Below, one piece after another: positions 1 to 52,173 of a DNA stretch of 64,000 nucleotides. The translations under genes and the position numbers were made by a program. The stretch is from Paracoccaceae bacterium. GTDB lineage: Bacteria; Pseudomonadota; Alphaproteobacteria; Rhodobacterales; Rhodobacteraceae. Every line of letters starts with the position of its first letter. Within the stretch, counting starts at the first letter, position 1. Location of the stretch: positions 1 to 64,000 of the forward strand of contig JABBAP010000024.1 of assembly GCA_018607905.1 (NCBI GenBank), written 5' to 3'. The notes below the pieces were generated by a model. The model saw nothing but the letters and a program-made list of their open reading frames with translations. It was not told the DNA's origin and searched no databases.

Positions 1-329
1 TTGGCGGCCAGAAACATTTGTCGGCCAGTGAAAGCATGGATGAGGTCGGAAATGACCAGGGGCCAGTGAATGCGTTATGGCGGGCATTGGAACGGGATTT
101 GGGGCCGTACCAAAGCATCATTGATGACATGCATTTGGTTGATTTCAAGGTGCGTATCACGGGCAGCGGGACCGAAGCGGTTACGCGTGTTGTGATCGAC
201 AGCCAAGATGGTGACGGGCAGCGCTGGTCCACGGTTGGGGTATCAGCCAACATCGTAGATGCGAGTTTTGAGGCGTTGACCGATGCCATTAACTGGAAGT
301 TGTTGCGCGATGGCGCTGTGACGGCCTAG
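1..329 (+). CDS. cimA: Citramalate synthase, C-terminal end (5' cut by window)
   Basis: The reading frame is open from the first bases, so the gene starts outside the window. The visible residues form the C-terminal regulatory domain shared by citramalate synthase and 2-isopropylmalate synthase: a GPVNALWRALE segment, then LVDFKVRI, GTEAVTRVVID, WSTVGVSANIVDAS and a closing ALTDAINWKL. In this family the domain binds the end-product amino acid. CimA joins pyruvate and acetyl-CoA to (R)-citramalate on the threonine-independent route to isoleucine. The spelling VDFKVRI and GVSANI fits CimA better than LeuA, but the catalytic TIM barrel is outside, so LeuA-type activity cannot be excluded. A TTG at 18 could be misread as a start. 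Confidence 0.85.
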   Translation, partial: GGQKHLSASESMDEVGNDQGPVNALWRALERDLGPYQSIIDDMHLVDFKVRITGSGTEAVTRVVIDSQDGDGQRWSTVGVSANIVDASFEALTDAINWKLLRDGAVTA

Positions 330-392
330 ATTTTGCGCAGTCCTGCGATGTTAACGGGGTTGAGCCTGCTGACGCCTTTGTTTTGAAAATGG

Positions 393-425
393 GCCCTGCC
401 GAGGTTGGCGGGCTGAGATTTTTTC
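393..425 (+). terminator. Probable rho-independent terminator after cimA
   Basis: A stem GCCC(T)GCC pairs with GGCGGGC around a six-base loop, with one bulged T, followed by TGAGATTTTTTC. Its position 60 bases beyond the cimA stop fits transcript release before the sugE promoter. Confidence 0.5.
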
Positions 426-428
426 TTT

Positions 429-478
429 GTAACCTTGACGTTACTTTTGTGAGTCCTTAAATGTAACCTCAACGTTAC
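429..478 (+). promoter_or_regulatory. Promoter with two GTAAC-N6-GTTAC palindromes upstream of sugE
   Basis: Two near-identical palindromes, GTAAC-N6-GTTAC, lie at 429-444 and 463-478, 34 bases apart. A promoter-like TTGACG at 435-440 sits inside the first and TTAAAT at 457-462 lies just before the second (16-base spacer). A repressor bound to both would cover the promoter, so the pair reads as tandem operators controlling sugE and the genes after it. The regulator is not identified; palindromes of this size are typical of TetR-like dimers. No guanidine riboswitch was seen. Confidence 0.55.
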
Positions 479-493
479 ATAAGGGCATGCGCG

Positions 494-808
494 ATGGTTT
501 GGTTTATATTGTTGATTTCGGGACTGTTAGAGGTTGTTTGGGCCACGGCAATGAAGGCGTCGGATGGTTTTACGAAAGTGGGGCCGAGCATCTTGACCGG
601 TGTTGCTGCATTCTTTGGGTTTTGGTTACTGGCGTATGCAATGAAGCATCTGCCGCTTAGCACAGCGTATCCCGTTTGGGTGGGTATTGGCGCCGTCGGC
701 ACGTTTATCTTTGGGGTGATCTGGTTTGGTGAACCTGCCAGCATCTTGCGGGTGGCCAGCGTGGCGTTAATTTTAACTGGGATTATTGGCTTAAAGGTGG
801 CGTCATGA
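494..808 (+). CDS. sugE: Small multidrug resistance protein, SugE/Gdx type
   Basis: A 104-residue, four-helix membrane protein of the SMR family. The first helix has the family glutamate in GLLEVVWATAMK, which in SugE/Gdx proteins couples proton entry to export of guanidinium or quaternary cations. The WVGIGAVGTF stretch and the GIIGLK ending follow SugE rather than EmrE. SMR proteins work as antiparallel dimers; only one subunit is encoded here, so a homodimer is likely. The start has AAGGG eight bases upstream. The stop overlaps the next gene by ATGA, so translation is probably coupled. Control is probably through the tandem palindromes upstream. Confidence 0.88.
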   Translation: MVWFILLISGLLEVVWATAMKASDGFTKVGPSILTGVAAFFGFWLLAYAMKHLPLSTAYPVWVGIGAVGTFIFGVIWFGEPASILRVASVALILTGIIGLKVAS

Positions 809-1206
809 ACGGGGAAACGCTGGTTCGATTGCGTGGGATTTTGATGGGCGGAGCAGGGTTTGTTTGTCTGTGTTACGCGGTTCTTGCACTGATCATGGCG
901 CGGCCTGATCCTGTGTACCCGTTTATCCCGGGGATCGCTGGCGTTGTGGCCAGCATCGCAATTTTTGCCGCGTTTTGGCAGGCCAGCAGCGGTTCGCGAA
1001 AGCAAGCATCTGACGAGACGTTCAAGATGGAAATGAACCAAGCTGCGAAGATCGGGTTTTGGGTCGCAGTGGCTATGTATCCTGGGTTTGCACCGTTTTT
1101 GGCCTGGGAATTGACGACGTTTGAAGTGATCTATGCCGTGATGGGAACCTTAACAGCGGCGGCATTTTTGCTGTCGTTTGCATTCATCAGCTTGCGGGGG
1201 CTTTGA
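805..1206 (+). CDS. Four-helix membrane protein of unknown function
   Basis: 133 residues with about four hydrophobic segments (roughly 12-32, 40-58, 84-103 and 110-130) separated by a short charged loop near residues 60-80 (SSGSRKQASDETFK). No catalytic motif was recognised. It overlaps sugE by ATGA and the XRE regulator by one base, so the three form one transcript. Small membrane proteins paired with a compact XRE repressor are common and the pair may form a signalling unit, but that is inference. Confidence 0.7.
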   Translation: MNGETLVRLRGILMGGAGFVCLCYAVLALIMARPDPVYPFIPGIAGVVASIAIFAAFWQASSGSRKQASDETFKMEMNQAAKIGFWVAVAMYPGFAPFLAWELTTFEVIYAVMGTLTAAAFLLSFAFISLRGL

Positions 1207-1412
1207 TGCCAAAATTGCGCAACCACCTAAAGGAATTGCGCAGCGCTGCTGGCTTGACACAAGCGCAGTTGGCGCAAGCGGTGGGCGTGTCGCGCAAAAC
1301 AATCAACACGATCGAAAATAGGATTTTTGTACCAAGCACGGTGCTTTCCCTACAAATTGCAGCGGAATTGAAGGTTTCGGTGCATGACGTTTTTGAATTG
1401 GAAGAGGAATAA
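1206..1412 (+). CDS. Compact XRE-family helix-turn-helix regulator
   Basis: 68 residues, nearly all of it one XRE/Cro helix-turn-helix. LTQAQLAQAVGVSRKTINTI gives helices 2 and 3, followed by NRIFVPSTVLSLQIAAEL and a short acidic tail FELEEE. Proteins of this size (YozG-like) bind DNA as dimers with no separate ligand domain. The start is the ATG at 1206, overlapping the preceding stop by one base; a TTG at 1203 would add only one residue. It may autoregulate its operon, but whether it binds the palindromes at 429-478 cannot be told. Confidence 0.85.
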   Translation: MPKLRNHLKELRSAAGLTQAQLAQAVGVSRKTINTIENRIFVPSTVLSLQIAAELKVSVHDVFELEEE

Positions 1413-1416
1413 AGTG

Positions 1417-2379
1417 ATGGGCACTGTGTTAAAGGTTTTGCGGTTTGCTGCGATTTCAGCTGGGATTTATCTGTTGATTGCTGGTGGATTGATCCTGTCG
1501 CAATGGCCCGTGGGTAAAGTTGAGGGCGAGGGGCTTGCGTTTGAAAAGTTGGTGTTTGATCACGTTGCAATTAAGCCTGAAAGGTACACCGCGCGTGATG
1601 GAACAACGATGAATGTGCGGGTTCGCGGCGGTGACGGCCCGTTGGTTGTAATCGTGCATGGATCTGGCGGGCACGGCGGTGGTTATGATTGGTTGGCAGA
1701 GCAAATTAGCCTGACGGGTGCAGAAGTTTTGCTCCCTGATTTGCGCGGACATTTTGGTGCGGATGGCCGCAGCGGTGACGTGGATTACATCGGGCAGTAC
1801 GAAGACGATTTGGCTGATTTGATCGCAAAATACCGCGCTGAAGGGCAAAAAGTTGTTATGGTTGGGCATTCGTCTGGCGGCGGATTGGTGACGCGATTTG
1901 CGGGCGGAGACCATGGCGAGATGCTGGACGGAGCAATTCTGCTCGCGCCTTTTCTAAAATATAATGCGCCAACGATGCGGGAAAATGCAGGCGGGTGGGG
2001 CCATGTCTTAACACGCCGTATGATTGGTCTTTCGATGTTGAACAATGTCGGGATTACCTTGGCCAATGGTGCAACTGTGCTTCAGTTTAACCTTCCTGAA
2101 GGGCGATTGGCTGAAACCATGACGGGGGCGTATTCTTATCGGTTAAACACGTCTTATGCACCGCGTGCGGATTATTTTGCGGATATCGCTGCGTTACCGA
2201 AATTTAAACTGATCGTTGGCGCAGATGACGAAGCGTTCAGGGCGCAGGAATATAAAACTTTGATGACGGGCGTGACAGACAAGGGCAGCTATCATGTTTT
2301 GGATGGCGTTTCGCACTTGGATGTGTTTTTGCAGGATCAAACAGCGGCTTTGATCGCAGAGTTCTTAGGCGGGGTTTAA
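1417..2379 (+). CDS. Membrane-anchored alpha/beta hydrolase (serine hydrolase)
   Basis: 320 residues. Residues 8-29 form a signal anchor, so the catalytic part should lie in the periplasm or at the membrane face. HGSGGHGGGYDWLAE (from residue 81) is the oxyanion-hole loop. GHSSGG places the nucleophile at Ser152, VGADDEAF supplies a likely acid and GVSHLDVF the histidine. The fold resembles lysophospholipase and monoglyceride-lipase types; the substrate is unknown. The ATG at 1417 is chosen because AGAGGAATAAAG precedes it; an in-frame ATG at 1384 lies within the upstream regulator gene. The stop overlaps the next start as TAATG. Confidence 0.82.
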   Translation: MGTVLKVLRFAAISAGIYLLIAGGLILSQWPVGKVEGEGLAFEKLVFDHVAIKPERYTARDGTTMNVRVRGGDGPLVVIVHGSGGHGGGYDWLAEQISLTGAEVLLPDLRGHFGADGRSGDVDYIGQYEDDLADLIAKYRAEGQKVVMVGHSSGGGLVTRFAGGDHGEMLDGAILLAPFLKYNAPTMRENAGGWGHVLTRRMIGLSMLNNVGITLANGATVLQFNLPEGRLAETMTGAYSYRLNTSYAPRADYFADIAALPKFKLIVGADDEAFRAQEYKTLMTGVTDKGSYHVLDGVSHLDVFLQDQTAALIAEFLGGV

Positions 2380-3164
2380 TGCAAAGCGAGATTTCCCAAG
2401 ATATTGCGCAATGCGCGCAAACGGTTCGAACGGGTGATCCTGATCGGTTTCTAAGTGCGATGACCGCCAGCGGCGAAACGCGCGACGCGTTGATGGTTTT
2501 GTATGCCTTTAACGTCGAGGTGTCGCGTGCGCCTTGGGTGACGGCAGAACCGATGATCGCGGAAATGCGGTTGCAGTGGTGGTTTGATGCTATCGAGGAA
2601 ATCTTTGAGGGTGGGGCGGTTCGCCGACATCAAGTTGTTACGCCGCTAGCTGAATTGGTGCGGCGAACGGGATTGCGCCGTGATTGGTTGCATGGGATCG
2701 TTGGCGCGCGCCAGTGGGATATTTACAAAGAGCCCCATGCAGATGGGGATGCGTTGGACGGATATTTAAGCGCAACAGGTGGTGGCTTGATGGGTTTGGC
2801 TGTTGCGTCCTGCGGCGGAGACGGGGACGCAGCGTATGAATATGGCGCGGGATGTGCGGTTGCACGATTGTTGCTGGCTGTTCCTGCGTTGGAACAAGCC
2901 GCGCGCTATCCTTTGGTGGATGGCACGACGACGGGTATCAAAACGCTGGCAGAGGCAGGTTTGGCACGCGCTGAGGCAGCCCGTCGAATGATGGGCAAGC
3001 CTTCGAAGGGCGCGCGGGCTGCGCTGCGTGCCGACTGGGTCGCGCGAGGAATTTTGAAGCAAGCCGTGCGAGACCCTGCGTTGGTTGCGGCAGGTGGTTT
3101 GGGGATGTCAGATGCCGGCAAAAAATTGCGGCTGATTTGGATGTCTGCTTTGGGAAGATATTAG
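2379..3164 (+). CDS. Squalene/phytoene synthase family protein, NDUFAF6-like
   Basis: 261 residues of the all-helical isoprenoid synthase fold. Segments such as LYAFNVEVSRAPWV, EMRLQWWFDAIEEIF and ATGGGLMGLA match the family. The two aspartate-rich DxxxD motifs that bind magnesium-diphosphate in real phytoene or squalene synthases are not present. Homologues without these motifs, typified by mitochondrial NDUFAF6, act in respiratory complex I assembly rather than isoprenoid synthesis. That role is inferred here; carotenoid synthesis is unlikely, as no crt genes are near. It overlaps the hydrolase upstream (TAATG). Confidence 0.72.
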   Translation: MQSEISQDIAQCAQTVRTGDPDRFLSAMTASGETRDALMVLYAFNVEVSRAPWVTAEPMIAEMRLQWWFDAIEEIFEGGAVRRHQVVTPLAELVRRTGLRRDWLHGIVGARQWDIYKEPHADGDALDGYLSATGGGLMGLAVASCGGDGDAAYEYGAGCAVARLLLAVPALEQAARYPLVDGTTTGIKTLAEAGLARAEAARRMMGKPSKGARAALRADWVARGILKQAVRDPALVAAGGLGMSDAGKKLRLIWMSALGRY

Positions 3165-3184
3165 ATATCTAAGGAACATTGAAG

Positions 3185-3781
3185 CTATTTTAGGGTTGCT
3201 TTGATGCCATCTAATTCGGGCTGCCAGTTGCGGAGTGCTTTGGTGGCTTTTTTCATGAGTTTTGCTTCGCGACCACGTAAATTTCCGATGATGAGGTTTT
3301 GGGATTCTGTCAGATCGGTAAAGATCGCAGTTGCAAAGGCGCGGGTGTTTTGGGTCATATAGCCTGACCAACCTGCATCTGCAGCGCCTTGCAATTGGAT
3401 AAGGCCAAAGCCGTGAATAATGCAGTGCAGATCGGTTGCAAGTTCGTGCGCCCCTTCGCCCCCTGGAAGTGTTTCAACATGCGGTTCGAGTTTGGCGTGC
3501 ATAAGTTCATGGGCCAACATCGAAATGAAATCGAGCGGCTTGCCCATCACCAATGGGTTGTAGGTGATCAGAGGTTCGACATCATCGTGAAAGTATTGGC
3601 CAGCAATCATACTGGTTTGGCCATGTTCAAAGCTATGCTCGGGAGCAAGTTGAGGGATTGGTTCGAGCCTAATTTTCAGATGATTAAGGTGCAGGAGCCG
3701 TTTAACGTCATTGAAAACACCGAGGGCTGAGGCGTGATCGCCGCCACCTTTTGCCGTGAAATAATCTTTGGTTGGGCGCAC
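3185..3781 (-). CDS. HExxH metallopeptidase-like protein of unknown function
   Basis: About 198 residues. SMLAHELMHAKLEPH carries an HExxH zinc motif, and 20 residues on HELATDLHCIIHGFG could supply the third ligand, as in gluzincin-like peptidases. No signal peptide or membrane helix, so probably cytoplasmic. The only usual start is GTG at 3781, with no clear ribosome site. The frame stays open upstream to a stop at 3836-3838 and reads INHYGPAFWQSPSSLV, which looks like real protein. The true start could be an unusual codon such as ATA at 3826, or a start may have been lost. The family was not recognised. Confidence 0.6.
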   Translation of the reverse strand: MRPTKDYFTAKGGGDHASALGVFNDVKRLLHLNHLKIRLEPIPQLAPEHSFEHGQTSMIAGQYFHDDVEPLITYNPLVMGKPLDFISMLAHELMHAKLEPHVETLPGGEGAHELATDLHCIIHGFGLIQLQGAADAGWSGYMTQNTRAFATAIFTDLTESQNLIIGNLRGREAKLMKKATKALRNWQPELDGIKATLK

Positions 3782-3895
3782 GAGGCTGCTTGGGCTTTGC
3801 CAAAACGCGGGGCCGTAGTGATTTATTGCCCAAGCCTAGTTGTCGAACACCCAAAGGGCGAGGTCTTCACTTATGAAATTTGTTTTCCAGAACAT

Positions 3896-5116
3896 TTATG
3901 CTTTTTTGCGGGTAATCATCGAAAGCCAAACAAGCGAGCCGAACGCGAGCGCCAAGAAGGGGACCATCGCGTAGTTTACGGCGTTCCAGCCTTCAACAGG
4001 ATTGCCGCCAGAGCAGTTCATCAGGCCCCCTGACGCCAGTGATGCGATGGTCACGAGGCCAAAGACGAGGAAGTCGTTCATGCCTTGGACGGGACCGCGT
4101 TCATCGGCGGTATGGGCGGTGGCAAGCATGGCGGTTGCGCCGATGAAGCCGAAGTTCCAGCCGATACCAAGCAGGATCAACGCGATGTAAAAGTTCGAAA
4201 GATCGACGCCAGAGAGCGCGACAACACCTGCGCCCATGAGGATAAACAGGCCTGCGCCCATGACCCGTTCAACGCCGAAACGCGCGATGATGTGGCCTGT
4301 GAAAAAGCTAGGAACAAACATCGCAAGGACGTGGGCGGTTACGATATGACCAGCCGTGTCTTTGGAGAACCCGCACCCAACGACGGCCAAGGGCGTGGAG
4401 GTCATCACGAGGTTCATCAGGGAATACGACACCATCGCGCAAATCACTGCGGTCGCGATACGGGGGGATTTTAGCAGCTCAAGGCGGGAGCGGCCTGAAT
4501 ATGGGCCTGCTGTTGTGTGTTTTGCTGTGCCTGAGATCAACATCGGGAAGATGACAAAGCCGATGCAATTTAGCACGAATGCGGCGGCATAAACGCCCAT
4601 GAACGGGACGACCAGTGCATCAAATGTGGCAGAGCCGAGTTGCGGGCCGATCACAGCCGACGCGAGGCCTGCAGCCATGACATATGAGATGGCTTTGGGG
4701 CGGTAATCGTCTGAGGCGGCGTCTGAGGCGGCAAAGCGATAAAAGCCGTGCGCGGACATGTAAATGCCCGTGAAATAAGAGCCGAGTAGCAGCAGTGGAA
4801 AGGAACTAATGTAAATTGCGATGGCCGATAGCAGTGCGCCAGTGGCACCGCCTGCAGCACCGAGCATGAAGCCTTTGGTGCGCCCAAAACGTGCCATGAA
4901 AGCAGAGAGCCACGGTGCGGTTGTCATGGAGCCAAAGACGATAAGTGAGATCGGCAGCGTTGCAAAGCAGATGTTAGATGCGAGTTGCTGCCCTGCGAGA
5001 CCTGAAAACGTAAACAGGAGCGGCATTTGCGCGCCAAGGACGGCCTGGGCGATGATCAGGATCAGCACATTGCGCTTGGCGATTTGGTCTTGGGTCATGT
5101 TTGCAGCATTGGTCAT
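3896..5116 (-). CDS. Major facilitator superfamily transporter
   Basis: 406 residues with about twelve hydrophobic segments. The cytoplasmic loop after helix 2 reads MARFGRTKGFMLGA, a form of the MFS loop 2-3 motif, and GHIIARFGVERVMGAG is its repeat in the second half. The closest recalled group is a YajR-like set of bacterial MFS proteins; substrate unknown. A second in-frame ATG (residue 7) could be the real start, as neither has a strong ribosome site. It reads toward the metallopeptidase-like gene 114 bases downstream on the same strand. Confidence 0.82.
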   Translation of the reverse strand: MTNAANMTQDQIAKRNVLILIIAQAVLGAQMPLLFTFSGLAGQQLASNICFATLPISLIVFGSMTTAPWLSAFMARFGRTKGFMLGAAGGATGALLSAIAIYISSFPLLLLGSYFTGIYMSAHGFYRFAASDAASDDYRPKAISYVMAAGLASAVIGPQLGSATFDALVVPFMGVYAAAFVLNCIGFVIFPMLISGTAKHTTAGPYSGRSRLELLKSPRIATAVICAMVSYSLMNLVMTSTPLAVVGCGFSKDTAGHIVTAHVLAMFVPSFFTGHIIARFGVERVMGAGLFILMGAGVVALSGVDLSNFYIALILLGIGWNFGFIGATAMLATAHTADERGPVQGMNDFLVFGLVTIASLASGGLMNCSGGNPVEGWNAVNYAMVPFLALAFGSLVWLSMITRKKA

Positions 5117-5179
5117 GAGGTAATCGGTAGTGGGGATTGGGGGGCAAGGGCAAGGGGAATGTTTGTGACGTTGGGGTTT

Positions 5180-5201
5180 GGATATTTTTGGCCAGAAGAA
5201 G
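5180..5201. repeat. Dispersed GGATATTTTTGG...AGAAGAAG motif, copy 1
   Basis: The intergenic space reads GGATATTTTTGG followed by CCAGAAGAAG. A related string lies at 11200-11223, and a weaker match overlaps the end of the tusA-like gene near 60511-60536. Similar strings are familiar from intergenic DNA of other Rhodobacterales by recall; no function is known to me. Confidence 0.4.
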
Positions 5202-5305
5202 CATGGGGGGTCGGTGACCAGAACAATTCGGTGGGACTTTGGCGCAGAACAATGTTAGGTTGAATTTACGTATTGATTTTGAAGTTTTGTCAAAAGGGAT
5301 TTTTC

Positions 5306-5911
5306 GTGGAGGTGGTGGTTTTTTTCATTTTGAGCTTTGTCGTCCTTGCGATCATTTTTTCAAATACGCAGAGAGACAATCGCCGGAGTAAACGACGTAT
5401 TCCGCCTAAATTTCGGCCTAACCCCCAGTATAGAAAGCGCGTCAAACGACAGGTCTTTGACAACAAAAGTGCAACGCCGTTGCCTTTGCCAAGAGTTTTA
5501 GAAGGGTTTGCGCGTATTATTGACGGCGATAGCCTGATCATCAACAAAACTCAGGTGAGATTGTATGGGGTAGACGCGCCAGAGTTGAACCATCCCTACG
5601 GGCAAAAGGCGAAATGGGCTTTGATCCATATGTGCAAAGGTCAGAAAATTCGGGCGGAAGTTACTGAAATAGATAGCTATGGGCGAACGGTCGCGCTTTG
5701 CTTTACGGAAGAAGGCAGGGATATTTCCGCAGAAATGGTTCGTCAGGGATTGGCGATTGATTGGCCGAAATTTTCTGGAGGTGTGTATCACAAACTGGAG
5801 CCTAAAGGTGTTCGCAAAAAACTCTGGTTGGCTGATGCACGGCAGCACGGTCGCATGCATATTTGGGAGCAGTTTGAAGCCCGTCAAAAAGCGAAATTAG
5901 ACGCGAAATAG
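5306..5911 (+). CDS. Membrane-anchored thermonuclease-family (SNase-like) protein
   Basis: 201 residues. An N-terminal helix (residues 2-19) is followed by a basic stretch (RRSKRRIPPKFRP) and then an SNase-fold domain from about residue 65: ARIIDGDSLIINK, VRLYGVDAPELNHPYG and DSYGRTVA supply the calcium-binding aspartates and active-site arginines of the family. Such proteins cleave DNA or RNA with calcium. The basic segment next to the membrane could hold nucleic acid. GTG at 5306 is chosen as start because AAGGGA lies six bases upstream; a TTG at 5273 would insert polar residues ahead of the membrane helix. Confidence 0.82.
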   Translation: MEVVVFFILSFVVLAIIFSNTQRDNRRSKRRIPPKFRPNPQYRKRVKRQVFDNKSATPLPLPRVLEGFARIIDGDSLIINKTQVRLYGVDAPELNHPYGQKAKWALIHMCKGQKIRAEVTEIDSYGRTVALCFTEEGRDISAEMVRQGLAIDWPKFSGGVYHKLEPKGVRKKLWLADARQHGRMHIWEQFEARQKAKLDAK

Positions 5912-5923
5912 GGGATGTGATTC

Positions 5924-7183
5924 TCAGTCAGGCGCAATCACATGTGCAAACGAGCCTGAGATTTTGCCGTTTTGTAGGCCCATGTCTGGGAGGGATGTGC
6001 CTTCGGCGTCGGTGGTTCTGAATAACGGTTTTCCGTCTGCTTTCAATGTTGTGGCGTAGTGAAATTCGTGGGCTTTCAGAGGTGTGGTCCACTGGCCACC
6101 ATTGGGGGTGAGGTTTCGATATCCTAGGTGCAATTTGCGTTTGGCGAAACTGGTTTCGAGCGATAGCAGGCCTGCCATTTTATGGCGGGTTCCGTCAGCA
6201 TTGATCAGACCTTCGCCGAGCATCATGTAACCGCCGCATTCGCCATAGATGGAGGGGGATGTGCGCAAGCCATTTAGGAAAACTTCATTTGCGGCGAGTT
6301 TGCCTGCGTGAAGTTCAGGATAACCGCCGGGTAGGAATACAAGATCACAAGGCGGAGGTGGTTCGTTCGCGAGCGGCGAGAAAGTTTGAATTTCTGCACC
6401 TGCCGCGTGCCAGCCTTGCAGCAAATGGGGGTAGGCAAAGGCAAAGGCGGTGTCAGATGCGACGGAAATGCGCTGGGCGGGTGGCGGCAAGATCGTTGCT
6501 GGCGCTTTGGACTGAATTTGTTGTGTGGCCAGCGCGAAAAGGGCGTCGATATCGACGGAGGTTTCCACGATATCAGCTGCTTGGTCGAGAAACGCGTTTA
6601 AATCGGGGTGTTCACTGGCCTGGATCAATCCCAGATGGCGCGAGGGGGTTTGCAGATTTGGTTGGCGTAAGATCGAACCGAGAATTGGGATGTTCAGCGG
6701 TTCAAGCGCAATGCGGACCATGCGTTCGTGACGTGGCGATCCGACTTTGTTCAATATCAAGCCCGCGATGTTTATCGTAGGATCGAGGGTGGCGAAACCG
6801 TGCGCGATTGCGGCGGCGGATTGTGCTTGGTGGCTGATATCTAGGATCAGGATAACTGGCAGGTTTAGAATGCGCGCAAGGTCAGCTGTCGCGCCTTTGC
6901 CGTTGGGAGGTGCGCCGTCGAAAAGGCCCATTGCGCCCTCGATCAGGAGGGTTTCGTCGCCCTCTGCGAGGTTGCGGATTGTGTCTGGCGTCATGGCCCA
7001 AGCATCGAGGTTTAGGCATTCGGCCCCAGAGGCCGCCGCGTGAAAGCGCGGGTCAATATAATCGGGGCCAGATTTGGCAGAACGAATGGGCACGCCGCGA
7101 TTGTAGAGAGCGCGCAACAGGCCAAGTGTAATGGTGGTTTTGCCGCTGGCAGAGCCGGGGGCAGAGAGGATCAGGCCCGGCAT
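5924..7183 (-). CDS. cobB: Cobyrinate / hydrogenobyrinate a,c-diamide synthase
   Basis: 419 residues. The N-terminal domain has the P-loop APGSASGKTT near residue 10 and a dethiobiotin-synthase-like ATPase fold (SGPDYIDPRFH, EGAMGLFDG). The C-terminal domain is a class I glutamine amidotransferase with the nucleophile cysteine in YGECGGYM and a histidine in AHEFHYA. The enzyme amidates the a and c side chains of the corrin ring using ATP and glutamine. The start at 7183 overlaps the cobA stop (TAATG), so the two are translationally coupled; longer in-frame extensions lie within cobA. Confidence 0.93.
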   Translation of the reverse strand: MPGLILSAPGSASGKTTITLGLLRALYNRGVPIRSAKSGPDYIDPRFHAAASGAECLNLDAWAMTPDTIRNLAEGDETLLIEGAMGLFDGAPPNGKGATADLARILNLPVILILDISHQAQSAAAIAHGFATLDPTINIAGLILNKVGSPRHERMVRIALEPLNIPILGSILRQPNLQTPSRHLGLIQASEHPDLNAFLDQAADIVETSVDIDALFALATQQIQSKAPATILPPPAQRISVASDTAFAFAYPHLLQGWHAAGAEIQTFSPLANEPPPPCDLVFLPGGYPELHAGKLAANEVFLNGLRTSPSIYGECGGYMMLGEGLINADGTRHKMAGLLSLETSFAKRKLHLGYRNLTPNGGQWTTPLKAHEFHYATTLKADGKPLFRTTDAEGTSLPDMGLQNGKISGSFAHVIAPD

Positions 7184-20944: not shown

Positions 20945-20977
20945 GCCGCCCAAGCTGTTGTTTGGGCGGCTATTTTT
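20945..20977 (+). terminator. Rho-independent terminator after comDE
   Basis: GCCGCCCAA (20945-20953) pairs with TTGGGCGGC (20962-20970) around an eight-base loop, followed by TATTTTTT. The end of the convergent RTX gene touches it. Confidence 0.85.
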
Positions 20978-22050
20978 TACAGGATGTCGATTGAATCCAC
21001 GAAGGCGAGTTCGCCTGCTGCGGTGGAGATATTGACACCATCCAAGCTGATGACACCACCGTCGTGCGTAACAAGTACTTGGTTCCCAACCGTAGTCACT
21101 GTGATACCATTTGTGCCGAGAATACGCAGGGTGTCTTGGGATACGTTGTAATCTTCGATGAGGTCAGCGCCTGAGGATGTGTCGAAGATAAAGACGTCTG
21201 CGCCACCGCCACCTTTGAGCGTGTCGCTGCCTTCACCGCCGTACAAGCTGTCTGACCCGCTGCCACCTTTTAAGTAGTCATCGCCAGCGTCGCCGTACAT
21301 TTTGTCGTTTTTGTTACCGCCGTAGAGGAAGTCGTCCCCCTCACCGCCATACATAAGATCATGCCCTTGTTGCCCTTTGAGGATATCATCCCCTTCGCCG
21401 CCATAAAGGCTATCGCCCCCAGAGCCGCCCTTTAGCAGATCATCGCCGTCGCCGCCGTATAGCTTGTCGCGGTGCGCGCCACCGAAAACGCGATCATTTC
21501 CTGTTCCGCCAAAGAGCTGGTCCCTTCCGTCGCCGCCATACAGCGTGTCATTGCCCGCGCCGAGATCAAATATATCGTCACCACCCAAGAGATAGGCGAT
21601 GTCGTCGCCGGAAGGGGGAATTGCATAACCTTCGGCTGAGGTTTGGTCTGCGGTTAAGACCTGCGCACCGTCGGTGCCTTGGAACACCCAATCCGTTTGT
21701 AGGAACAGCGTTTCCAATGCGAATGGATTGCTACCATTCAATTCGGCCAGAAAAGCGTTGGTCAGATCGAGGTTGTCGATAGAGAGATTGCTGATGGTAC
21801 CGGCGATTGAACCAGCTTCCAAGATTGTCAGCGTTGTGAGTGTGCCGCCCGTTAAAAGGGACTGTCCGTTCATGACCGTGTATTCGAATGCCGTGCCTTC
21901 AAAGACGTAGGATCGCCCAGCACGGTCCACTTGATACGTGGTGGCGTCCTGTTGGGTGATTGATCCGCCATAAGCGGCCGTTGCAAAGAGGTTGAGAAAA
22001 TCTGAAAACCCTAAAGAAGAAGTTGCATTGTATGAAAATGTATAAGCCAT
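20977..22050 (-). CDS. RTX-type calcium-binding protein, probable type I secretion substrate
   Basis: About 357 residues with no signal peptide. The N-terminal half (to about residue 150) is not recognised. Residues about 150-300 contain a run of glycine/aspartate nonapeptides such as GGDGRDQLF, GGTGNDRVF and GGEGDDFLY that build calcium-bound parallel beta rolls. The C-terminal tail, with ADVFIFDTSSGADLIEDY before the end, is the usual type I secretion region. No secretion ABC transporter is nearby. ATG at 22050 (GGTGGA upstream) is preferred to an in-frame TTG at 22098. Function unknown. Confidence 0.82.
   Translation of the reverse strand: MAYTFSYNATSSLGFSDFLNLFATAAYGGSITQQDATTYQVDRAGRSYVFEGTAFEYTVMNGQSLLTGGTLTTLTILEAGSIAGTISNLSIDNLDLTNAFLAELNGSNPFALETLFLQTDWVFQGTDGAQVLTADQTSAEGYAIPPSGDDIAYLLGGDDIFDLGAGNDTLYGGDGRDQLFGGTGNDRVFGGAHRDKLYGGDGDDLLKGGSGGDSLYGGEGDDILKGQQGHDLMYGGEGDDFLYGGNKNDKMYGDAGDDYLKGGSGSDSLYGGEGSDTLKGGGGADVFIFDTSSGADLIEDYNVSQDTLRILGTNGITVTTVGNQVLVTHDGGVISLDGVNISTAAGELAFVDSIDIL
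21180..21600 (-). repeat. Glycine-rich nonapeptide repeat block in RTX gene
   Basis: At DNA level this block is an imperfect tandem array of 27-base units encoding GGxGxDxLx, seen on the + strand as recurring GCCGCCATA and CATCGCC strings. It can be a recombination hotspot and copy number may vary between strains. Confidence 0.75.
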
Positions 22051-22242
22051 TGGTCCACCGAAATTATTTGCGTCGAACCTGCCAGCTACATCACTCAAAT
22101 TCTACCACTTAATTTGCCATTCTTGGAAACAACCGGTTTTTAGGTTGCGACCATGGTGTGCAATTGTGCAGTTGGAATTGACCCCGTTGCGTGCATTCCA
22201 TATGGAGGGCGCAGTAAAAACAAGCCCTTCAAGGATGCTGTG

Positions 22243-46815: not shown

Positions 46816-47985
46816 ATGGCACGACATATTGCGGCGAACTTTGTCAATTTAATGATCGTCTTGCTGGTGGCAGCAGGTGGGCTATTCTATTGGGCAAAAG
46901 GCGAGTTTAACAATTCAGGGCCATTAAAAAGCGCATTGTTCGTTGAAGTGCCCCGAGGTGGCTCCATGTCTCGCCTTGCGGCCGAGCTGGAAGAGCAGGG
47001 GGCTGTAAGTCACGCGATGATTATGCGTGTGGCGGCAAATTATAATGGCCAGGCAGAGAAGCTGAAATTTGGGAACTACGAAATTCCAGCGGGCGCTTCG
47101 ATGGCGGAAATTTTGAATATCGTCACGAAGAGCACACGCAGCGTGTTTCAATACCGCCTAACTTACACCATCGGGATCAAATCAGCGAACCTTCGGTTGG
47201 AAAAGCGGGAGGGCGAGAAATTTGAACGTGTTGCTGCTTTTGCTTCGGGTGAAGAATTACCGCAAGAGTATGTTGCGCTCGTGGATGCAAAGACGCCGAT
47301 AAACTATCGTATTACTGCGGCGGAGGGTGCCACATCATGGCAGATCGTTGAAATGTTAAACCAGACAGATTTCTTGGGCGGTAAAGTTGAAAGTATCCCA
47401 CCAGAAGGCATGCTGGCACCAAACACATACGAAGTGCGTCGTGGTACATTAGTTTCGGAAGTTCTCGACCAGATGTTTTCCGCACAAAAGAGAATTTTGG
47501 CTGAGGAATGGGAGAAACGCGCGCCTAACTTGCCATTCGATACCCCAGAAGCTGCGCTTGCTTTGGCCTCTATCATCGAGAAAGAAACAAGTGTAGCTGA
47601 GGAACGGCCAGAAGTGGCCGCAGTTTTTGTGAATCGTTTGAACAAGGGCATGAAGTTGCAGATGGACTCGACTGTCGAATACGGGTTGACGAATGGGCAA
47701 GGCTTTTTGAATCGTGGTTTGCGTCGCAGTGAGCTATCCAAGAAAACACCATACAACACGTACATTATTGATGGATTGCCCCCAGGCCCAATCGGGAACC
47801 CACGACGCGATGCCATCAGGGCGACGTTGAATCCGAACATATCGAACAATGTGTTCTTTGTTGCGGACGGAACTGGGGGCCACGCATTTGCGGAAACATT
47901 GGTAGAACACAACGCAAATGTTGCCAAATGGCGTAAGATTGAAGCGGAAAAGAGACGTCAGCAGCAACAGAACAGTAGCGATTAG
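46816..47985 (+). CDS. mltG: Endolytic murein transglycosylase MltG
   Basis: 389 residues. One N-terminal helix (about 10-26) anchors a periplasmic part. The YceG domain has EGMLAPNTYEV, ASIIEKETSVAEERPEVAAV with the catalytic glutamate, FVNRLNKGMKLQMDSTVEYG and NTYIIDGLPPGPIGNP. It cuts nascent glycan strands and sets their length. fabF-mltG next to the GTA cluster is, as I recall, the usual Rhodobacterales neighbourhood. Confidence 0.95.
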   Translation: MARHIAANFVNLMIVLLVAAGGLFYWAKGEFNNSGPLKSALFVEVPRGGSMSRLAAELEEQGAVSHAMIMRVAANYNGQAEKLKFGNYEIPAGASMAEILNIVTKSTRSVFQYRLTYTIGIKSANLRLEKREGEKFERVAAFASGEELPQEYVALVDAKTPINYRITAAEGATSWQIVEMLNQTDFLGGKVESIPPEGMLAPNTYEVRRGTLVSEVLDQMFSAQKRILAEEWEKRAPNLPFDTPEAALALASIIEKETSVAEERPEVAAVFVNRLNKGMKLQMDSTVEYGLTNGQGFLNRGLRRSELSKKTPYNTYIIDGLPPGPIGNPRRDAIRATLNPNISNNVFFVADGTGGHAFAETLVEHNANVAKWRKIEAEKRRQQQQNSSD

Positions 47986-48208: not shown

Positions 48209-48535
48209 ATGAAAAGAACTGAAGATGCAAATGGGCAAGCTTTGCCTTTGTTACTGCGTGCTGCGCAAATCGAGTTGATAGAGCGGCGAAAAATGCTCCT
48301 GAGTGCTTTGTCGTCAAAGAGACCCCGGCATGCGTTTACCTCAACTGCAGATCTACTTGCCCACGTAAAAGAGTACAGCGCAGCATTTCTGAAACTTACG
48401 TCTTTTGAGGAACAAATTGACCGAGATAGCAAATCCTTGCGTAACGCCGTCCATGGAAATGCAGATCGCGTTGAAGACTCAAGACAAGAAGTCGTTGATC
48501 GAATTGCTCGGTTCCGTGAGCGAAGCGGAAACTAA
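48209..48535 (+). CDS. GTA gene 1 homologue (putative small terminase subunit)
   Basis: 108 residues, rich in helix. Position, length and overlap with the terminase-derived gene match gene 1 of the Rhodobacter capsulatus GTA cluster, proposed to be the small terminase. Visible segments are LPLLLRAAQIELIERRKMLL and ADLLAHVKEYSAAFLKL, with a charged C-terminus (RQEVVDRIARFRERS). No helix-turn-helix is obvious. Identity rests mainly on context, so confidence is moderate. Its job, selecting DNA for packaging, cannot proceed without an intact large subunit. Confidence 0.6.
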   Translation: MKRTEDANGQALPLLLRAAQIELIERRKMLLSALSSKRPRHAFTSTADLLAHVKEYSAAFLKLTSFEEQIDRDSKSLRNAVHGNADRVEDSRQEVVDRIARFRERSGN

Positions 48536-50921
48536 CGCCTTTTTTAAAAAACTGAGTGATGAAACGCTTATAACGCTTCCCTATCTTTTTGAGTTTTGGG
48601 CTTTGCCACATCAACTTGAGCCGCCCGGGGATTGGGCCACTTGGGTTGTACTTGGCGGGCGAGGTGCCGGTAAAACACGGGCCGGCGCTGAGTGGATACG
48701 TTCAAAGGTAGAGGGTGGCGAATTTTCGGAACCTGGTAAACAAAAACGCGTGGCGTTGATTGGCGAGACATTGGATCAAGTTCGCGAGGTTATGGTGTTT
48801 GGTGATAGTGGGATAATAGCCAGTAGCCTGCCTGAGCGACGACCTGAATGGCACGCTGGAAGGCGCGCATTGATCTGGCCAAACGGTTCTGAAGCCTGGG
48901 CAATGTCTGCTAGTAGTCCTGAAAATCTGCGTGGGCCACAGTTTGATTGCGTTTGGGCCGATGAATTTGGCTGCCCTGCGATCAACAAAGGTGCAAATCA
49001 ACCAAACGTGTTTTACGATCCGAAATCATCTGAATCAGCTCTGCCGTTCTTTTCAGATGGATCCGTAGATACATTAATGCAGCTGCAATATTTGCGCGCG
49101 ACATTTTCTCACTGGCAAGATGCCCAAAATAACCCACAATCGGAAATCTATTTTGGCCCGATGGTCGATTTGGATAACAGTCATGTCTGGGCTTGGGATG
49201 CACGGCCATGGCCAGATTTCCCAAATAGGCTGAATGTTTGGAGCGATGGTGAAAACCATGCGCGAGGACATTGGATCACCGGCCGGTTTGCCGAACAATC
49301 TTTGGCAGCAATCGTATCCGAGCTTTGCGAGATTTCGGGGCTGTTAGATATTGACGTATCTGAGCTGTATGGCTCGACCATTGGGTTTGCGATGAAAACC
49401 GTGGAAACGGGGCGCGCAAGCCTCCAACCTTTGATGTTAGCATTTGATTTTTCCAGTAGAGAAGTCGACGGTAAATTGGTTTTCACAAACCGGAGTGAAC
49501 GGATCGAATATACGGCTTTGCCTGCGAATTTAGCAATTTTAGGCACTGATCCTGTGGTTGGTAAAACACGGGCACCTGAGGCTGAAACAGTAGGGCGGGT
49601 ACGTGTGTCGTATTGGGATGAGACACGTGACTATCAAACTGGAACGTCGGAGTTCATTCTTGCCGATGATGACAGTAAGGCAACATCGCATGTGGAATTG
49701 CCTGTTACGTTGCGCCCTGGACAGGGTGCAAATTTAGCAAGTCAATGGCTGGTGTCTGCACGGGTTTCGCGTGATGAGCTAAAAATTGCGCTGCCGATGG
49801 CGCAGCAACAGATTGTTCCCGGGGATGTGATTAAGCTGGAAGACGGTGCGACGGGGGGCACCTATCGTGTTGAGCGTATCGAGGAGCAAGGCGCGCGATC
49901 CATCGAAGCCGTGCGTGTTGAGCAATCTGTTTATAAACAGAAAGATATTGGCTCGACAGTCGGTACAATTTCAGACGTTAGGCCCGCACGATCCGTTTTA
50001 TTCCGTTTTCTTGATCTACCTTTGCTGCAATCAACGCAAACTTCGGTTGGGCCGCATTTTGCAGCCACAGCTTCGCCGTGGCCTGGTGGTGTAGCAGCAT
50101 ATCAATCCGCGAGCGATGATGGCTATGTTTTGAACACTGTGCTCGAAGCGCCAGTTCAATTTGGCACAACGCAAACTGCATTGAAAACCCCATGTATCGG
50201 ACGGTGGGTCGAAGGGGATGGTGTCGATATTCAGCTTTCTCAAGGTGCGCTGCAAAGTCGGTCAAAATTGGATGTATTAAACGGTGCAAATGTAGCCGCA
50301 ATTGGTGACGGATCGAGTGATGGATGGGAGCTTTTCCAGTATCGCGAGGCCGAATTGTTGGGAGATGGCGCTTATCGTTTGCATGGCTTGTTGCGCGGTC
50401 AATTGGGCAGTGATGCGGAAATTAAAGGACATTGGCCAGCTGGGTCCGAAATCGTATTTTTGAACGAAACACCTACGCAGATTAATCTGATCGATGCGGA
50501 TCGCGGACTTGAGCGATATTATCGTGTGGGGCCCGTGAATAAACCCGTTAGCGATGCGGTTTATACGACACGGACCGAGGCATTCGATTTGATCGCTTTG
50601 CGGCCCTTGTCGCCAGTACATTTATCTGTGCGTGAAATGAGTGGTGAGGTAACTATAAGTTGGATCCGCAGAACGCGGATTGATGGAGACAGTTGGCAAG
50701 GAACCGATGTTCCATTGGGGGAAACAACCGAGAGTTACGAAATCGCTGTTCTTTCATCGGGTGTTGAGGTTCGCCGTGAAACGGTAACTTTAACAAGCTG
50801 GGTATATACGGCCGCCAATCAAACGGCTGATGGAGTGGTGGGTGAAGTAACGGTAAATATTGCTCAGGTTTCTGAGCGATTTGGCCAAGGGGCGTCTGCA
50901 AGTACGTCTTTCATAGTATAA
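48453..50921 (+). pseudogene. GTA chimera: terminase N-terminus fused in frame to tail/host-specificity protein C-terminus
   Basis: One open frame of 822 codons. Residues 40-168 are the GTA large terminase ATPase: LPYLFEFWALPHQL, the P-loop LGGRGAGKTRAGAEW (68-82) and SPENLRGPQFDCVWADE (Walker B). From about residue 168 the sequence becomes GTA gene 15: EFGCPAINKGANQPNVF, DPKSSESALPFF, then the long beta-rich phage-tail region (HVWAWDARPWPDFP, ITGRFAEQSLAAIV, HGLLRGQLGSD). Lost are the terminase nuclease domain, genes 3-14 (portal, capsid, tail) and the front of gene 15. Start uncertain (ATG 48453 or 48405, GTG 48516). The intact frame is surprising for a relic. Confidence 0.82.
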
Positions 50922-50932
50922 AAGGTGCCGTT

Positions 50933-51229
50933 TTGAGAGCCGTTTTACACCAAGACATTGTTTCTTTGGCTACCTGTCTAATGGAGCAACCCGTTAACGA
51001 ACGTGCGCCATTTGCCGCGCTACAAATAAAACTTGCCCATGCGGCAGACCGGTATCGTTCGCGCTTCGGCAAAGCACATACTGTTTTTGGCAACGGCACC
51101 TTGGCGTCTTGTTGCGCCAAACAGCGGCGAAGCGTCGAAAAGCGGTTGGATGATGCGGAGTATGCAGATTGTATGATCAAAGCGTTGGAGGCTGTTGTCG
51201 AGTTTCGGAATGAGCACAAATTTGTTTAA
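50933..51229 (+). CDS. Small conserved protein following the GTA cluster (DUF7742-like)
   Basis: 98 residues, TTG start with AAGGTG five bases upstream. Segments HQDIVSLATCLMEQP, RSRFGKAHTVFGNGTLASCC and DDAEYADCMIKALEAVV match a Rhodobacterales family recalled at this position after GTA gene 15 (DUF7742, name uncertain). It lacks membrane or signal sequences. Its retention next to the collapsed cluster may mean a role outside GTA, or simply that the deletion did not reach it. Confidence 0.6.
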   Translation: MRAVLHQDIVSLATCLMEQPVNERAPFAALQIKLAHAADRYRSRFGKAHTVFGNGTLASCCAKQRRSVEKRLDDAEYADCMIKALEAVVEFRNEHKFV

Positions 51230-51366: not shown

Positions 51367-52173
51367 ATGACACAAAAAGCCGTAAACATAACTGAACTCG
51401 ATCCAGTCTGGTCACGCATCCGTTTGGATGCTGCCGAAATGATTGAGAATGAGCCAATCATGGGGGGATTGGTTCATTCCGGTGTGCTCCATCATTCCTC
51501 GCTAGAAAATGCCCTGAGCTATCGGATGGCGCTCAAGATGTCGTCGGACGAAATGCCAACGCAAATTCTGCGCGAATTGATTGATGAAGCCTATGCAGAC
51601 GACCATGCGTTGGGTGACGCTGCACGAGCGGATCTTACAGCGGTGTTTGAGCGAGATCCTGCGTGCCACCGATTGATTCAACCAATTCTGTTTTTCAAAG
51701 GCTTTCAAGCGGTTCAAGCCTACCGCGTAGCCCATTGGTTATGGGTAAATGGGCGTCACGCAATGGCACAATTCGTGCAGATGCGTTCGTCCGAAGTGTT
51801 CGGTGTGGATATCCATCCAGGTGCCGTTGTGGGGCGAGGCATAATGATTGATCATGCCCATTCGATTGTGATCGGTGAAACCGCGGTCGTTGGTGACAAT
51901 GTTTCAATGCTACACTCTGTTACTCTTGGGGGTACAGGTAAAGCGGATGGCGATCGGCACCCAAAGATCGAAAATGGCGTTTTGATTGGTGCTGGGGCAA
52001 AGGTTCTGGGCAATATTCGAATAGGATATTGCAGTAGAATTGCTGCAGGCTCGGTGGTTTTACAGGAAATTCCACCGTGTAAAACAGTCGCTGGTGTCCC
52101 TGCAAAAATTGTTGGGGAAGCCGGATGTTCGCAGCCATCTCAATCTATGGATCAGTTGCTTAACTACCAATGA
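51367..52173 (+). CDS. cysE: Serine O-acetyltransferase
   Basis: 268 residues. An N-terminal helical domain (PVWSRIRLDAAEMIENEPI) leads into a left-handed beta helix: GVDIHPGAVVGRGIMIDHAH with the catalytic Asp/His, GETAVVGDNVSMLHSVTLGG, RHPKIENGVLIGAGAKVLGN and the usual VLQEIPPC before the tail. It acetylates serine with acetyl-CoA for cysteine synthesis and is normally inhibited by cysteine. GAGGT precedes the ATG. It forms the right boundary of the GTA locus. Confidence 0.95.
   Translation: MTQKAVNITELDPVWSRIRLDAAEMIENEPIMGGLVHSGVLHHSSLENALSYRMALKMSSDEMPTQILRELIDEAYADDHALGDAARADLTAVFERDPACHRLIQPILFFKGFQAVQAYRVAHWLWVNGRHAMAQFVQMRSSEVFGVDIHPGAVVGRGIMIDHAHSIVIGETAVVGDNVSMLHSVTLGGTGKADGDRHPKIENGVLIGAGAKVLGNIRIGYCSRIAAGSVVLQEIPPCKTVAGVPAKIVGEAGCSQPSQSMDQLLNYQ

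Follow-up and report, generated by a model that had tools for sequence, protein, structure and literature searches.

A codon-identical in-frame fusion of terL and g15 in collapsed gene transfer agent clusters of the Rhodobacteraceae

Why should the first part of a terminase gene run on, in frame, into the second half of a tail gene, and why should the join fall at the same codon in one genus after another? These questions are raised by a window of 64,000 nucleotides (the whole stretch of DNA analysed here, positions 1 to 64,000 of contig JABBAP010000024.1, assembly GCA_018607905.1, from a Paracoccaceae bacterium of the family Rhodobacteraceae), in which a gene transfer agent (GTA) cluster of the type found in Rhodobacter capsulatus (RcGTA) is reduced to g1, one fused frame, and g16 between mltG and cysE. 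The fused frame joins terL, the gene of the large terminase TerL, to g15, the gene of the megatron protein gp15, and our main result is that a codon-identical terL-g15 join is present in 18 genomes from 17 genera. The maintenance and loss of GTAs is an open question for which cheater lineages are predicted, and GTA pseudogenization and loss in alphaproteobacteria, together with the cheater idea, is already in print (PMC10883770; here and below, statements from cited papers draw on excerpts of them). The locus described here adds a route of loss that was taken in 17 genera, each time at one and the same codon pair and with a GafA-type gene retained, beside routes whose junctions look random.

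The fused gene lies in an 838-codon frame without a stop codon, on the + strand from a TTG at 48405 to 50921, with likely starts at the ATG codons at 48453 or 48459. Within the 821-residue piece encoded by 48456-50918, residues 65-171 match Terminase_6N (E = 3.7e-10, profile positions 2-105 of 215, i.e. only the N-terminal half of the Pfam profile), and residues 161-817 match the GTA megatron model NF048004 (model positions 639-1297 of 1299, E = 1.6e-209), with a score of 698.7 bits that falls below the curated cut-off of 800. Profile searches with Pfam, PHROGs, and NCBIfam support the identity of the fusion, which covers residues 641-1299 of 1304 when aligned to RcGTA gp15 (PDB 6tba, chain 8A). 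At the junction, the DNA reads TGG GCC GAT GAA TTT GGC TGC and the protein LRGPQFDCVWADE followed by FGCPAINKG, with the split directly after the Glu whose codon, GAA, occupies 48963-48965. The frame retains both GGRGAGKT and WADE, which we take to be the Walker A and Walker B motifs of the ATPase; the C-terminal nuclease domain of TerL is absent, the Pfam match ending within the N-terminal model. The original prediction, made from the sequence of the window alone, had proposed a terminase fused in frame to gp15, and the presence of both profile matches in one open frame bears this out.

The junction across the family

Is the join peculiar to the window? A search of its genus (33 genomes) revealed a second species, G015, fused at the same place, and a survey of the family (394 genomes, close to one for each genus, queried with the junction piece) revealed 17 genomes with one match running through the junction, namely the window's own and one from each of 16 other genera. 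Fused genomes therefore total 18 in 17 genera (17 of the 394 surveyed plus the congener G015). Each of the 17 survey genomes gave a single match only, so that no separate terL or g15 is present at that threshold. The junction codon is identical in all 18: the sequence follows TerL through Asp-Glu and then gp15 from the residue preceding Gly-Cys, the residue before the junction Glu is always the TerL-type Asp, and the one after it is variable, as it is in gp15 (L, F, Y, I, M, T). The surroundings recur as well, with cysE after the fusion in 17 of the 18 loci (the contig of G170 ends first), mltG before it in 16 of the 18 stretches (the exceptions being G102 and G015, whose contig starts in g1), and a TerS-like frame directly upstream in all 17 loci with upstream sequence, the 18th being open at the contig edge. 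Fourteen of the fusion frames are fully open (826 to 887 codons from the first start), those of G015, G087, and G344 are broken, and that of G170 runs off the contig; an alignment of 13 fused proteins is gap-free across the junction, with well-conserved arms on both sides. The same codon-exact junction in 17 further genomes is more than chance. Neither an isolated accident nor an assembly collapse confined to the window (an assembly collapse had been entertained in the original prediction) is supported, since the codon-identical fusion is found in 16 other genera and a second congener.

Outside the family, a class-wide sample of 385 genomes gave 105 that matched. Five of these belong to this family, G087 and the window's genome included; among the other 100, no match extends over the whole junction query, 32 genomes have a gp15-side match, and the absence is not statistically significant. 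TerL and gp15 are always separate frames in the 27 intact clusters analysed, and the same single protein was not seen inside an intact cluster. Among the matches listed for the plasmid collection (16 of 16 records) and the phage collection (20 of 190 records), none crosses from the TerL part into gp15 by more than about 20 residues.

Do GTA clusters generally collapse at this codon? Among 30 candidate collapsed loci examined, 15 have two recognizable sides (in G103 these are separated by ∼1 kb of unassigned sequence, and G026 and G029 are from the window's genus), and no two of these 15 collapses share a junction; six of the joins keep the frame and nine do not. The in-frame share is near the chance expectation of one in three (p = 0.59). 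Ordinary collapse thus looks random, and the Glu-Glu junction stands apart. A crude bound on the probability that 17 of 32 junctions share one in-frame codon pair by chance is 1e-84; the count of other junctions is a lower bound, the 313 family genomes with two or more matches lying outside the scan for partial collapses.

The collapsed locus and what is missing

The features of the window's locus are as follows, all on the + strand.

46816..47985, +, mltG, endolytic transglycosylase, left border (Pfam YceG, E = 8e-76; TIGR00247; on the same side in G020)
48209..48535, +, g1, homologue of the small terminase (TerS), 108 aa, intact frame (46% identical to g1 of G020)
48453..48965, +, TerL-derived part, i.e. 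the N-terminal part of the ATPase domain, ending at the Walker B Asp-Glu (Terminase_6N; 82% identical to TerL of G020)
48654..48677, +, Walker A motif GGRGAGKT (from the sequence; kept in the 17 aligned fused genomes, with G369 outside the alignment)
48963..48965, +, fusion point, the Glu codon GAA common to the TerL Walker B and the gp15 TIM-barrel motif (from the sequence; same position in 18 of 18 fused genomes)
48966..50921, stop codon 50919-50921, +, C-terminal half of gp15 (megatron), with GTA TIM domain stub and central and fibre-binding domains (GTA_TIM, Phage-tail_3, Rcc01698_C; NF048004 639-1297; RcGTA gp15 641-1299)
50933..51229, +, homologue of g16 (DUF7742), 98 aa (PF24891, E = 9.6e-24; g16 identity by position)
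51367..52173, +, cysE, serine O-acetyltransferase, right border (TIGR01172, above cut-off; 96% identical to G020)

Between mltG and cysE, g1 and the terL- and g15-derived parts stand in RcGTA order. The g1 frame has no hidden Markov model match in Pfam, PHROGs, or NCBIfam and is instead identified by its identity to g1 of the sister genome; in R. capsulatus, g1 has 324 bases and encodes the small terminase, which binds the TerL ATPase domain (PMC6854486). RcGTA g16 (rcc01699) directly follows g15 and precedes cysE1 (PMC9552610), and it is by this position that the DUF7742 gene is g16. RcGTA gp15 is divided into an iris/penetration domain (residues 1-46), an adhesin-like domain (47-229), a peripheral domain (230-744), a central domain (745-984), and a fibre-binding domain (985-1304; Bardy et al., PMC7296036), and the gp15 part in the window corresponds to roughly the last hundred residues of the peripheral domain plus the central and fibre-binding domains.

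The closest sister available, G020 (same genus, one contig), has the full cluster, with TerL and gp15 encoded by separate genes. The gp15 part of the window is 78% identical to G020, and the points that are joined in the window are 11.3 kb apart in G020, so that ∼11.3 kb is missing from the window. Could the missing genes reside elsewhere? The source genome (G000) is a 3.17 Mb draft of 76 contigs in which the fusion is the sole Terminase_6N match, and probes for portal, capsid, and the C-terminal half of TerL, taken from G020, found no match in this draft, which is 95.9% complete; the same probes matched in the controls, G020 and G014. Relocation of the missing genes within the genome is accordingly not supported. 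The profile matches and the intact sister together uphold the original prediction of a collapsed RcGTA-type cluster between mltG and cysE in which, besides the chimera, only g1 and a small follower (g16/DUF7742) remain, and its statement that no DNA can be packaged from this locus agrees with the failure to find the TerL nuclease half, portal, or capsid in the draft. As far as sequence can show, the collapse is real. The same probes have no match whatever in 14 of the 18 fused genomes; the other four (G102, G124, G175, and G369) have capsid matches of 28-37% identity elsewhere in the genome, as ordinary prophages would give, and G124 also has a portal match of 22%.

Origin and fate of the fusion

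What could place the same junction in 17 genera? Our tentative answer, to which we assign a probability of about 0.4, is that the deletions are largely independent, that they occur in lineages giving up particle production, and that the junction is over-represented since its product is favoured while it lasts. The in-frame join between the Glu codon of Walker B in terL and its counterpart in g15, which is seen in the sequence, would have arisen by deletion mostly separately in each lineage, and the product would consist of the opening portion of the TerL ATPase domain, Walker A and Walker B included, a disordered stub, and the folded baseplate half of gp15. Cells that have ceased to package DNA would still make it, alongside TerS and presumably under the control of GafA, the GTA activator. 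What might such a protein do? It could act as a decoy, serve as a binding protein derived from the baseplate, or be no more than the remnant that does least harm; another way in which the product may be pictured is that of the original prediction, a receptor-binding protein with an ATPase head. In R. capsulatus, TerS binds the whole TerL ATPase domain (PMC6854486), of which the window keeps the first part.

The independence of the deletions is addressed by trees. The g15C tree holds 15 fused and 27 intact rows (G087, G170, and G344, with broken or cut frames, were left out here and in the g15C statistics; G015 was cut at its frameshift; and intact rows were taken from among the top matches and are not a random sample) and requires at least 11 changes between fused and intact, with a single fused clade rejected by the approximately unbiased (AU) test (p = 0.0006). 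In the g15 tree, the window is sister to intact G020 (support 100/100) and G015 to intact G014 (100/99), and the TerL tree agrees on both pairs (100/98 and 97/80, respectively). Additionally, fused G136 pairs with intact G206 and G102 with G220 in the g15 tree, G175 and G409 stand beside G274 and G239, and the other species in the genus of fused G272 is intact. A quick tree of fabF, mltG, and cysE gives 13 changes and puts G175 and G409 beside intact G202. Change counts of this kind cannot separate gain from loss; repeated regain of the same 11 kb is implausible.

Retention of the activator is a second consideration. A GafA-type gene (PF20057, DUF6456, which we take to be the GafA domain) is present in all 18 fused genomes and in 8 of 8 intact genomes tested; in the window's genome it is matched at G000:C51:194650-195048, with an open frame of 369 aa that is 81% identical to that of G020. 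The frame is full-size (369-449 aa) in 16 fused genomes, i.e. 16 of the 17 in which it is not cut by a contig end (as in G344), the remaining one, G087 (L276), having an in-frame stop. For comparison, six other collapses were picked by hand: the gene is full-size in G241 and G280, G029 has it open over the available sequence, G026 has a broken copy, and none was found in either G010 or G025, such that the frame is intact in 16 of 17 fused genomes vs 3 of 6 (hand-picked) other collapses (p = 0.04). In G026 (L292) the gene is frameshifted, and the GTA locus is decayed in G026 and G087 alike.

Structure prediction and substitution rates bear on whether a product is maintained. An AlphaFold2 model from 67 alignment rows has a mean predicted local distance difference test score (pLDDT) of 76.8 and a predicted template-modelling score of 0.53 (a 13-row run was poorer, with a mean of 63.2). 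Block means are 83-93 for TerL residues 81-150 and 67-69 for 151-170, and the gp15 half is mostly at 75-96; most of the gp15 half and TerL residues 81-150 are thus predicted to be folded, which counts for the proposal. Foldseek ranks the megatron of phage R4C first and RcGTA gp15 fourth, with low whole-chain TM-scores. The ratio of nonsynonymous to synonymous substitution rates (dN/dS, Nei-Gojobori) is 0.08-0.17 for the TerL part and 0.17-0.29 for gp15 in fused-fused pairs, vs 0.03-0.05 and 0.11-0.16 in intact pairs; several pairs, including the window vs G020, are saturated at synonymous sites, G015 was again cut at its frameshift, and G369 and G133 have no TerL row in this or the invariant-position analysis.

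Several observations weigh against a favoured product or against fully independent origins. The model has a pLDDT below 50 for residues 40-70, up to the start of the P-loop, and in the stub after the junction (172-205 and parts of 245-278), so that no chimeric fold is predicted; a new fold at the junction is accordingly left unsupported, and no terminase appears among the best 50 Foldseek matches listed. The fusions lie near the tips of the trees with no long-lived fused lineage proven, and the low dN/dS may for that reason predate the fusion. Fused copies depart more often from the residue at positions that are invariant in intact clusters (TerL, p = 0.011; g15C, from which G015 was left out, p = 0.067; both uncorrected for kinship), from which it follows that time has passed since fusion. 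Some fused g15C branches are also long, at 0.98 for G136 vs 0.32 for G206 and 1.55 for G369 vs 0.76 for G133; those of the window pair are near equal (G000, 0.14; G020, 0.15). In other collapses, what remains of gp15 lies in an open frame with about the same frequency (11 of 14) as in the fusions, and an apparent coupling of broken fusion frames with short GafA-type frames (at first p = 0.022) was dropped, as the G344 gene is cut by the contig and only that of G087 is stopped (p = 0.125). Finally, fused genomes stay together as sister pairs in G124/G168 and G175/G409, and a G111/G248 clade is not rejected (AU p = 0.385), though denser sampling places intact genomes between them; independence is therefore not complete, and G111 and G248 may share one fusion. 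For the original suggestion of selection for the product, the observations point both ways: the frames are mostly open and the GafA-type gene is kept; the position of the fusions near tree tips and the predicted disorder after the junction speak against it.

Might the junction be a mutational hotspot instead? Short-homology end joining or site-specific cutting could repeatedly delete the DNA between the two Glu codons without selection, the protein being a by-product; this possibility ranks close behind our proposal, and we hold it to be somewhat less probable. The codon is always identical, the fused copies are young and mildly relaxed, and in all 27 intact clusters in which junction homology was measured (G003 and G016, in which the junction motif was unmatched, were left out) both sites have a Glu codon that shares at least the letters GA. 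However, the exact shared run is only 2-9 nt, and when whole terL is compared to whole g15, 50 to 5,588 diagonals outscore the junction diagonal in each of the 27, which speaks against a long direct repeat or strong homeology as the driver. A neighbouring Trp codon is common to both genes in 15 of the 27, yet the crossover is there in 0 of 18 fusions. Conservation of synonymous codons near the two sites is not raised, and invariant residues there show no greater uniformity in their codons than those elsewhere, which speaks against a conserved (hidden) DNA site. The distinction matters: if one chimeric product of a virus-derived cluster is selected again and again, this would be a striking convergent gene birth; otherwise, bacteria would have an unrecognized codon-precise deletion hotspot. 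A bolder version of convergence, in which Rhodobacteraceae repeatedly turn a GTA into the same new protein, a piece of the packaging ATPase fused at one exact codon to the baseplate half of megatron, that is kept with the small terminase under the GTA activator for a particle-free function, strikes us as rather unlikely.

Could the joins exist only in sequence records or assemblies, and not in the organisms? A codon-exact join with no homology and native flanks has the look of an artificial one, and the IMG/VR, plasmid, and phage collections searched yielded no second, independent copy of any fused species; the single junction match in IMG/VR, in an unrelated phage, is a chance match, and a second IMG/VR scan gave at least 80 loci, of which the one inspected, L209, is an intact cluster. 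We nevertheless find an artefact improbable, given 18 genomes from 17 genera with different assembly grades (G087 is a single contig, with its fusion frame broken), given that GTA portal and TerL C-terminal half were not found in fused genomes save for the 22% portal-like match of G124, and given the additional substitutions at otherwise invariant positions in fused copies.

Spread by a template, in which the fused allele had a single origin, reaches other lineages as short DNA (by transformation or as GTA load), and deletes the cluster via conserved arms, appears slightly less probable still. It would account for a junction codon that never varies; conservation among fused proteins is high in both arms, transformation favours shorter alleles (PMC4774983), and RcGTA carries ∼4.5 kb. 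A donor-templated patch is left unsupported, however: for 13 of 15 fused genomes, the 72 nt that follow the junction are most similar to an intact sequence, and post-junction divergence from the chosen sister is within the intact-intact range (both weak tests, the former with a pool richer in intact rows).

One ancient fused gene inherited by all 18 genomes would suit the identical junction and its gap-free alignment but is contradicted by the pairing of G000 and G015 with intact sisters in both trees, by the AU rejection of a single fused clade, by residues beside the window junction that match those of G020, and by its need for the same 11 kb to have been regained from close relatives again and again, which leaves it very little room.

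Known systems and other collapsed clusters

How does the locus compare to known systems? The RcGTA cluster (R. capsulatus g1-g15, rcc01682-rcc01698) has the same locus, gene order, and flanking genes. Relative to it, the window keeps g1, the first TerL part, the C-terminal half of gp15, g16, and cysE; it lacks ∼11.3 kb that begin with the remainder of TerL and end with the first half of gp15, has two genes in one frame, and cannot give rise to particles. The portal, major capsid, and complete large terminase of RcGTA were not found in the G000 draft; the GafA-type gene is present. With megatron gp15 (6tba/6teh; R4C, 8gtc), the window shares the C-terminal 650 residues, 39-46% identical to 18 intact relatives outside the genus, but part of a TerL ATPase domain replaces the iris/penetration domain, the adhesin-like domain, and most of the peripheral domain. 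Reported lost GTA clusters are alike in the loss of particle genes and in possible cheater lineages, and the window differs from them by one codon-exact in-frame fusion that recurs across genera; no report of a recurring terL-g15 fusion was found in the excerpts of open-licence literature searched.

The other collapses contain in-frame fusions of their own. In G336 (L151, oriented 4904-6274), a GTA tape-measure fragment and cysE occupy one 457-codon open frame, a fusion with a host metabolic gene. Portal is fused to gp15 in G241 (L144, oriented 3728-5383), TerL to gp15 at a different place in G050 (L139, oriented 1878-3722), TerL to the follower in G029 (L037, 18470-17019, minus strand), and capsid to the follower in G026 (L036, 8210-9205); G108 has a stop near its in-frame join. 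Two collapsed clusters, those of G339 (L155, oriented 3306-6581; 1092 codons) and G352 (L156, oriented 3563-6715; 1051 codons), have lost most other GTA genes and retain the greater part of gp15 in a long open frame. A genus labelled g1 (not to be confused with the gene) has GTA loci that range from intact through partial collapses to complete loss, e.g. G010 (L042), G025 (L043), and G032 (L044), and is a good set for studying GTA decay; an mltG-cysE fusion considered for G010 was dropped, the two frames ending separately.

Elsewhere in the window, a 373-codon frame on the - strand (20977-22098) has glycine- and aspartate-rich repeats that look RTX-like, the family having been judged by eye from the sequence.

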